This document shows, piece after piece, positions 12,237-29,782 of a DNA stretch of 64,000 bases. The DNA is from Acidobacteriota bacterium (GTDB taxonomy: Bacteria > Acidobacteriota > Vicinamibacteria > Vicinamibacterales > UBA2999). The translations under genes were made by a program, and so were the position numbers. The notes beneath the pieces were generated by a model that had not been told where the DNA came from, ran no database searches, and saw only the letters and a list, made by a program, of their open reading frames with translations. Location of the stretch: the NCBI GenBank assembly GCA_030697165.1, contig JAUYQQ010000008.1, forward strand, positions 315,001-379,000, read 5' to 3'. Within the stretch, counting starts at the first letter, position 1, and every line of letters starts with the position of its first letter.

Positions 12237-12325
12237 CCTAACACGAAGGTCACGAAGACCACGAAGACCGACCTGTTGTTCGTGTAAAGAAGAGTGCTCC
12301 GTGTCCTTCGTGATCTTCGTGTTTG
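12237..12325. repeat. CACGAAG phrase hairpin
   Basis: Tandem CACGAAG-type units (ACACGAAGGTCACGAAGACC and neighbours) on the left are answered by their inverted form (CCTTCGTGATCTTCGTG) on the right, giving an imperfect hairpin with a loop of about 35 nt. The same phrase family occurs at 29501-29612. The right arm runs up to the promoter of the next gene. Confidence 0.75.
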
Positions 12326-28281: not shown

Positions 28282-28314
28282 ATGAAGATCACCTCGGCGC
28301 GGGAGCAGCCGTAG
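28282..28314 (+). CDS. Ten-codon leader ORF (MKITSAREQP)
   Basis: A very short frame, MKITSAREQP then TAG, whose stop shares one base with the GTG start of the zinc-ribbon gene (TAGTG). With the -10 seven bases upstream, the mRNA would begin with this ATG, so ribosomes would translate it first and could re-initiate at the GTG. It could be a coupling or regulatory leader peptide. It could also be chance, and coding status rests only on position. Confidence 0.35.
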   Translation: MKITSAREQP

Positions 28315-28790
28315 TGTCCGACGATCGCAAATACAAACAGCGCGGGTATCAAGAGAGCGACCGCCCTTCGGGGCCACGCCCCGATCGGCCGGCCACGCCC
28401 AAGCCCGAGCGCGAACCGGGCGCCCCCGCCGGCGCCCGCCGCATCTCGTCGGAAGGCGCGCGCAACCCCCGCATGATGTCGTCGCGCCAGGTTGCCCGCT
28501 GCGCCCGCTGCGGCACCATCGTCGATGCCGAGATCATGTCGCGCAGCAAGTGCCCGAAATGCCAGGTCGACCTGCGCTCCTGTGTGCAGTGCGTGAACTT
28601 CGACCCGAGTGCCAGCCTCGAATGCGCCGAGCGCATTCCGGCGCGCGTTTCGCCAAAGGACGTCGCCAACGACTGCCCGCTGTTCTCGGGCCGGACCTCG
28701 TTCGAGCGCGAAACCACCGCGGCCGTGAGCCAGAACCCCAAGGAGCCGACCGGCGCCAAGAAGGCCTTCGACGACCTGTTCAAGTTCTAG
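28314..28790 (+). CDS. Zinc-ribbon protein of unknown function
   Basis: A 158-residue protein starting at GTG. The first 65 residues are basic, Pro-rich and probably disordered. Then come Cys pairs consistent with a zinc ribbon, CARCGTIVD and CPKCQVDLRSCVQC, plus further Cys in LECAERIP and NDCPLF. The pattern looks like a conserved acidobacterial zinc-ribbon protein; no function is known to me. It is followed closely by the selenoprotein gene, which has its own -10. Confidence 0.65.
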   Translation: MSDDRKYKQRGYQESDRPSGPRPDRPATPKPEREPGAPAGARRISSEGARNPRMMSSRQVARCARCGTIVDAEIMSRSKCPKCQVDLRSCVQCVNFDPSASLECAERIPARVSPKDVANDCPLFSGRTSFERETTAAVSQNPKEPTGAKKAFDDLFKF

Positions 28791-28843: not shown

Positions 28844-29500
28844 ATGGGCTTACTCAGCGCGCAGGACGAAGCAACGCTCAAGCAACATCTCTCCACCATC
28901 ACCCAACCCGTACAGCTGCTGCTCTTCACGCAGGCCTTCGGCGGATCCGAAAGCGGTCCGGTCGCCAAGCAGATCCTCGACGAAATCGCCGGCCTCAACG
29001 ACAAGATCACCGTGGTCGAAAAGAACTTCGTCCTCGATCTCGATGACAAGGCCAAGTACAAGGTCGACAAGGCCCCGGCCATCGTCATCCTGGCTAACGA
29101 TGTCGATACCCGCATGCGCATGTACGGCGCGCCGACCGGCTACGAGTTCGTCGGCCTGGTCGAGGCGATCCTGGTCGCGGGGACCGGCAAGATCGACCTC
29201 GAGCCCGAGACCATGGCGTGGGTGCAGGCGGTCACCACGCCCACTCACATCCAGGTGTTCTCGACACCCACTTGACCACACTGTCCGAGGGCGGTCGTCC
29301 TCGCACACAAGATGGCAGCCGCCAACCCGCTGATCACCGCGGACGCGGTCGAGGCCACGGAGTTCATGGACCTGAGCCGTAAGTACCGCGTCACCGGCGT
29401 GCCCAAGACGATCGTCAACGAGACGATCGAGATCATGGGCGGATTGCCGGAACAAGACTTCGTCCGGGCCGTGCTGCAACTGCCGGAGACGAACCCTTAA
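28844..29500 (+). CDS. Thioredoxin-fold selenoprotein (glutaredoxin-like PDO), Sec at UGA codon 144
   Basis: A 218-residue protein with an in-frame TGA (29273-29275) at codon 144, read here as selenocysteine. The frame continues without another stop to 29500. The first half (1-140) is a degenerate thioredoxin fold (QPVQLLLFTQAFGG; KAPAIVIL). The second half has VFSTPT-U-PHCPRAVVLAHKMA, a UxxC redox motif where family members have CxxC, then YRVTGVPKTIVNE with the cis-Pro. This is the two-domain protein disulfide oxidoreductase layout. A hairpin with a GGUC apical loop directly follows the UGA. Annotation as two fragments or a pseudogene would be wrong if selAB genes exist elsewhere. Confidence 0.85.
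29273..29307 (+). promoter_or_regulatory. Bacterial SECIS-like element
   Basis: From the UGA at 29273, CGAGGGC (29286-29292) pairs with GUCCUCG (29297-29303) around the tetraloop GGUC (29293-29296), with one G-U pair. UGU (29282-29284) can pair with ACA (29305-29307) below a C-C mismatch. Counting the U of UGA as 1, the loop GGUC is at 21-24; in E. coli fdhF the loop GGUC is at 22-25. Loop sequence and spacing both match the SelB-binding type. Confidence 0.8.
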
Positions 29501-29612
29501 CCACGAAGGACACGAAGTAAGAACCACGAAGGACACGAAGTAACTCTTTCAAGGAATACCAAAATGCCTGTCTTGTCTTTGAAAGATGGCTTCGCGTCCT
29601 TCGTGGTTGCGT
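29501..29612. repeat. CACGAAG phrase hairpin
   Basis: Two tandem AACCACGAAGGACACGAAGT units (29501-29540) face the inverted form CGCGTCCTTCGTGGTT (29595-29610); inside, ACTCTTTCAAGG faces CTTTGAAAGATGG. The hairpin covers the region where a signal peptide of the following M55 remnant would be expected. Confidence 0.75.
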
Positions 29613-29782
29613 TTGATGCATCCGCACAAGGCAAGAAGGTCTACATCTCGGTCGACATGGAAGGCATCAGCGGCGTGATCGGCGACGACCAGACGAGGAC
29701 CTGGATCCGCGCGCCCGCCGGGTCGATGCCCGAGGCGTACCGCGTGATCCGCGTGCTGTACCGCTTCATCAGTCTCGACTAG
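29564..29782 (+). pseudogene. Remnant of M55 (DppA-type) D-aminopeptidase
   Basis: A 72-codon frame. The stretch AQGKKVYISVDMEGISGVIG is the mature N terminus of M55 peptidases. It runs directly into RAPAGSMPEAYRVIRVLYRF, which resembles the family's C terminus. The roughly 200 residues between, with most metal ligands, are missing, so it cannot be active. Residues before AQGKK are encoded by phrase repeat and replace a signal peptide. An in-frame internal deletion is the simplest origin. Confidence 0.7.

Follow-up and report, generated by a model that had tools for sequence, protein, structure and literature searches.

The N-terminal domain of AhpF has one redox site, located in the second of its folds. 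Protein disulfide oxidoreductases (PDOs) carry one CxxC motif per fold; as far as the available text of PMC7465337 goes, they are exclusive to thermophiles, their C-terminal site carries thiol-transferase activity, the isomerase activity of the Sulfolobus enzyme requires both sites, and Sulfolobus has a route from NADPH through thioredoxin reductase (TrxR) and PDO to peroxiredoxin. In the accessible part of a 2006 survey, 'Homolog of AhpF, amino-terminal domain' appears with two sequences among 25 selenoprotein families, the members containing selenocysteine (Sec) being those of Carboxydothermus and Symbiobacterium (PMC1794560). Under the name 'Homolog of AhpF N-terminal domain (Grx-like domain protein)' the family is tabulated with profile TIGR02187 and a UxxC motif (consulted sections of PMC9312934 and PMC13188914), and its representative is ABB15282.1 (PMC9312934, PMC13188914; PMC1794560). 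The term 'AhpF' is absent from the available text of PMC1088965 (2005). One Acidobacteriota genome is listed with three known selenoprotein genes, whose names are not given in the accessible part of the source (PMC12013277), and a literature search on selenoproteins in Acidobacteriota and on AhpF N-terminal homologues returned, in the text available, no account of the TIGR02187 family in this phylum. Here we describe a gene in a 64,000-nucleotide stretch of DNA from an Acidobacteriota bacterium (the window) that, by all sequence tests applied, is a real selenoprotein gene and belongs to this already known family.

The gene and its in-frame UGA codon

The gene (28844-29500, forward strand) starts with the ATG at 28844 and ends with the TAA at 29498-29500, and its frame holds a single internal stop, the TGA at 29273-29275, which is codon 144. 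Reading it through corrects the gene model to 218 residues, instead of the 143 obtained with UGA as a stop. The read-through protein matched the NCBIfam profile TIGR02187 (PDO_seleno_TRX) with 229.1 bits against a cut-off of 185, over profile positions 2-208 of 209, and Pfam Thioredoxin_3 at residues 135-211. The codon context is TPT-(TGA)-PHCPRAVV, and the predicted active site, U144-P-H-C147, lies in the C-terminal fold: UGA would encode Sec as the first residue of UxxC, and the TGT codon 147 (29282-29284) would supply the resolving Cys, which is the sole Cys of the translation and is invariant in an 11-row alignment. The first-pass annotation had described a frame interrupted at 29273 and open on to 29500, with UGA in place of the first Cys of CxxC; coordinates and translation agree with this, and relatives have either UGA or Cys at position 144. 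Its expectation that standard annotation would split or truncate the gene may be too strict: the NCBI profile is itself named PDO_seleno_TRX, so that present-day annotation need not truncate it. A loose script returned 252 candidates for UGA read-through in the window, this gene included; four of the others were scanned against Pfam, with no matches.

Ten relatives in the contig collection (44-93% protein identity, L011 being the most distant) keep the frame downstream of codon 144, which is TGA in nine of them and TGT (Cys) in L010. Unrelated stops or a decayed downstream frame, named earlier as signs against the Sec reading, were not seen among these ten. In a sample of 396 genomes of the phylum, with counts tallied by eye and genomes that share ancestry and so are not independent, 72 genes in 71 genomes scored above the TIGR02187 cut-off; 30 genes (29 genomes) had a single internal TGA and 42 had no internal stop. 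No internal TAA or TAG was found among these 72 genes or among 90 genes above the cut-off in a sample of the order (the two sets overlap). A SelB match was present in 29/29 genomes with the TGA form, in 37/42 with the no-stop form and in 285/396 overall; the no-stop genomes without one were G006, G375, G048 (79% complete), G269 and G261.

The genome that contains the window (5,388,385 bases in 23 contigs, completeness 100) was searched for the Sec machinery. The search yielded one SelB match, matches to SelA and SelD, and a tRNA-Sec that scored above the Rfam cut-off and whose anticodon ARAGORN gave as tca, so that all four components which the first-pass annotation had proposed to look for were found. 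Another Rfam tRNA-Sec match, inside the window (C8:350583-350672, minus strand), was a tRNA-Ser(tga) by ARAGORN and was discarded. The selD gene (C8:380065-381144; L094:1065-2144) starts about 1.1 kb past the end of the window and has an in-frame UGA of its own near the N-terminus (C8:380149); folding of the 45 bases from that UGA gives a hairpin of -22.6 kcal/mol. The Sec machinery thus includes a predicted selenoprotein itself.

By the standard code the frame of the window gene does end at codon 144, and the TGA could then be a true stop that closes a 143-residue N-terminal half protein or marks a decaying gene. Such a half protein would, however, be without the sole redox site, the frame beyond the TGA is conserved in the ten relatives, the internal stop is always TGA (30/30 genes in the phylum, 79/79 above the cut-off in the order), and the genome encodes the Sec machinery. 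We regard a true stop as extremely improbable, and the gene almost certainly encodes a selenoprotein, as judged from the sequence comparisons.

The hairpin downstream of the UGA codon

Just past the UGA, at 29286-29303 of the forward strand, the transcript can fold into a SECIS-like hairpin, CGAGGGC-GGUC-GUCCUCG, with a 7 bp stem and the GGUC loop at 29293-29296; refolding reproduced the hairpin that had been reported in the first reading, with GGUC at bases 21-24 when the U of UGA is counted as 1. The loop of E. coli fdhF is at bases 22-25 from the UGA. Rules for bacterial SECIS elements, as given in the available part of PMC13188914, call for a loop of 3-9 nt with a G in its first two positions, a stem of 4-16 bp, a distance of 16-37 nt from the UGA and an MFE of at most -7.5. 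The window hairpin falls within these limits, with its GGUC loop, 7 bp, 17 nt from UGA to loop and -10.8 kcal/mol over positions +13 to +36. An Rfam search of 29200-29400 with E values up to 10 gave three matches, all far below their gathering scores and none to a SECIS family.

Against dinucleotide shuffles the hairpin had z = -1.45, with 16/200 shuffles folding equally well, and against synonymous-codon shuffles z = -1.7 (p = 0.05). By itself it is thus only moderately unusual, and this borderline value is the second point that speaks for a true stop. The claim of a selenoprotein is carried by the comparative evidence, not by the window hairpin alone.

For this comparison, positions +13 to +36 were folded at 74 loci where the residue at the site was read as UGA (35) or Cys (39). 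Seven loci were left out as repeats: L002, L003, L006 and L007 (of L072, L069, L067 and L073, whose contigs are equally long) and L038, L046 and L053 (of L054, L055 and L056); in G344, G320, G039 and G052, which account for 4/42 no-stop genes, the residue was not read. The mean energy was -10.9 kcal/mol at UGA loci versus -5.7 kcal/mol at Cys loci (Mann-Whitney p = 3e-10, kinship ignored), a difference to be read alongside GC contents of 0.77 and 0.65, since the higher GC favours stable hairpins in the UGA group. The apical loop started at +21 or +22 in 33/35 UGA loci. The hairpin ranked within the best 5% of the in-frame 24-mers of its own gene at 29/35 UGA loci and 14/39 Cys loci, and the synonymous-codon shuffle p, as printed and counted by eye, was at or below 0.05 at 21/35 and 6/39, respectively. 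The SECIS rules were passed by 32/35 UGA sites (all except L059, L060 and L064) versus 10/39 Cys sites, against a background of 528/7273 in-frame positions in the UGA genes and 279/8195 in the Cys genes, with the sites themselves included. A paired test that took the tree into account found no significant association between hairpin and Sec state (median p 0.375 over 7 pairs).

Covariation was analysed in the 12 closest rows, 7 of them distinct. All 49 stem cells had standard pairs and 6/7 pairs were invariant; pair 15-30 was G-C in four distinct rows and C-G in three, both changes being synonymous (CCG to CCC, Pro; CTC to CTG, Leu). The covariation score was reached by 12/500 shuffles and the count of double-change pairs by 443/500. 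Because the double change at pair 15-30 may be one event, it supports the hairpin without deciding the matter.

These comparisons also bear on near-cognate suppression, in which the UGA would be read through as a residue other than Sec. Its expectations sit poorly with a SECIS-like hairpin after the UGA, with SelB in all 29 genomes of the TGA form and with Cys at the site in 39/39 Cys-type relatives read, and we give such suppression as little chance as a true stop.

Sec and Cys forms across the phylum

The order was sampled with 162 genomes, 90 of which gave 93 matches in all: above the cut-off 79 genes with TGA and 11 without a stop, and below it three partial genes (one with TGA, two without a stop). 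With 80/93 matches, the UGA form is the common one there; the Sec form, counted in two bacteria in the available text of the 2006 survey (PMC1794560), is thus indicated as the common form in one order. L077 and L079, two UGA copies of the gene in one genome of the same family of bacteria (G385), lie on different contigs, each with an upstream zinc-ribbon gene. A tblastn search of a plasmid collection returned 61 records, all below 60% identity (26.9-28.4% among the five matches listed). The spread of relatives found here may be at odds with the thermophile-only description of PDOs.

On a tree of the proteins of the 74 loci, the Sec/Cys state cannot be explained with fewer than 12 changes, and well supported branches force 7 of these. 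Cys tips stood among UGA rows on starred branches (L010 with L009, L031 with L055) and in starred groups (L083 with L066 and L070; L085 with L063, L065 and L076). The sites of L010 and L031 still agree with the SECIS rules, and those of L083 and L085 fail them; the genomes of L083 and L084, G269 and G261, are both among those without a SelB match. The placement of Cys tips inside UGA groups suggests losses of Sec in favour of Cys, a change that the accessible part of a 2026 review describes as rare and found mainly in FdhA and SelD (PMC13188914). We also considered whether loss of the N-terminal CxxC is tied to Sec: the motif is absent from 16/35 Sec loci and 3/39 Cys loci, a difference confounded by kinship, as only 3 changes on the tree are needed and a paired test found no link to Sec, and the association was rejected.

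Only tentatively, and at somewhat less than even chances, do we extend these observations to a picture of repeated Sec/Cys switching across the phylum, several of the switches being Sec-to-Cys losses, combined with an order-level pairing with a zinc-ribbon partner encoded upstream. The close Sec/Cys pairs lend themselves to studying the contribution of Sec to a disulfide reductase with one site, as well as the origin and decay of SECIS elements.

Gene neighbourhood, proposed function and comparison with known proteins

Upstream of the selenoprotein gene, at 28314-28790 of the forward strand, lies a Cys-rich, zinc-ribbon-like ORF. It matched Pfam PF23470 weakly (22.2 bits, below the cut-off of 26); neither Pfam nor NCBIfam gave a match above cut-off, the best NCBIfam score being 23 bits, where 63 is the cut-off. 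The zinc-ribbon gene is immediately upstream on the same strand in 20/74 loci; in the order it is directly upstream in 69/93 loci (less than 600 bases between profile matches), while in two further cases it is on the same strand at a distance of up to 3.5 kb, and in two it is divergent. From this conserved arrangement a shared operon of the two genes is likely. A promoter scan found none, and the single terminator-like site compares with 1.6 on average in shuffles.

The window has five copies of a dispersed repeat, ACCACGAAGGACACGAAG, with at most 2 mismatches, against 0.00 expected (29500-29517, 29523-29540 and 12240-12257; on the minus strand, 29590-29607 and 12297-12314); a stretch similar to it is found just ahead of selD. 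What remains of a Peptidase_M55-like (D-aminopeptidase) gene lies at 29564-29782. L003 and L002 have about 690 bases between two of its stretches, which almost adjoin in the window, and an internal part therefore seems to have been deleted.

The structure of the read-through protein was predicted with residue 144 entered as Cys and an alignment of 11 rows. The model (mean pLDDT 91) has two fused thioredoxin folds. Among solved structures, those with related sequences are parts of AhpF as well as PDOs or glutaredoxin-like proteins from Aquifex, Pyrococcus and Aeropyrum. The N-terminal fold, which starts at approximately 28928-28957 of the forward strand (the FTQAFGGSES region), lacks the CxxC found in many relatives, there being no Cys before residue 147, and the protein is therefore predicted to have one site.

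By analogy with these proteins the product is more likely than not a thiol-disulfide reductase. In the proposed mechanism, SelB and Sec-tRNA would bind the hairpin just past the UGA and selenocysteine would be inserted at position 144; U144 and C147 would form a selenenylsulfide at the single redox site, which thioredoxin reductase would reduce, with electrons passing on to peroxiredoxin or other disulfides, as may be expected from PDO and AhpF. Because the N-terminal CxxC is absent, thiol-transfer rather than isomerase activity is expected. The genome has one TrxR above cut-off, on a contig other than that of the selenoprotein gene, which makes this partner a guess; at the Cys-type loci L032, L034 and L089 the next gene looks, by eye and from the start of one sequence, like a thioredoxin reductase.

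A selenoprotein could also have its main work elsewhere, as an oxidase or isomerase of PDO type, since PDOs are the closest solved folds, or by acting chiefly on the zinc-ribbon protein, whose gene so often lies directly upstream. However, the Sulfolobus isomerase needs both sites, in the available text of PMC7465337, and one is present here; the zinc-ribbon gene occurs in 142/162 genomes of the order, in 90/90 with a PDO match at E 1e-20 and also in 52/72 without one. We consider these roles unlikely, and the explanation as a whole, a selenoprotein that acts as a one-site thiol-disulfide reductase fed by thioredoxin reductase, has a good probability.

The first-pass annotation had proposed a selenocysteine version of the two-domain PDO. 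The Sec form is supported; the two-site layout is not, as the N-terminal CxxC is absent. The model superimposes along its whole length on the two fused thioredoxin folds of Pyrococcus furiosus PDO (1a8l; TM 0.92, 32% identity), yet, in contrast to a two-site PDO, the window protein has the C-terminal site alone, with Sec in it. Compared with AhpF N-terminal domains (5h29, 6il7 and 1zyn), the model gave TM 0.82-0.89 by query length, and the single-site layout makes the window protein more like this domain than like a two-site PDO. Unlike AhpF, it is free-standing, without a fused flavoprotein part (the frame ends at residue 218, and the NCBIfam AhpF profile gave 68.5 bits, far under the cut-off of 502.9), and Sec replaces Cys. 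With the listed selenoprotein family of AhpF N-terminal homologues it shares the profile, above cut-off, and Sec as the first residue of UxxC; it differs from the Carboxydothermus and Symbiobacterium members in lineage, and its own clade has no N-terminal CxxC.
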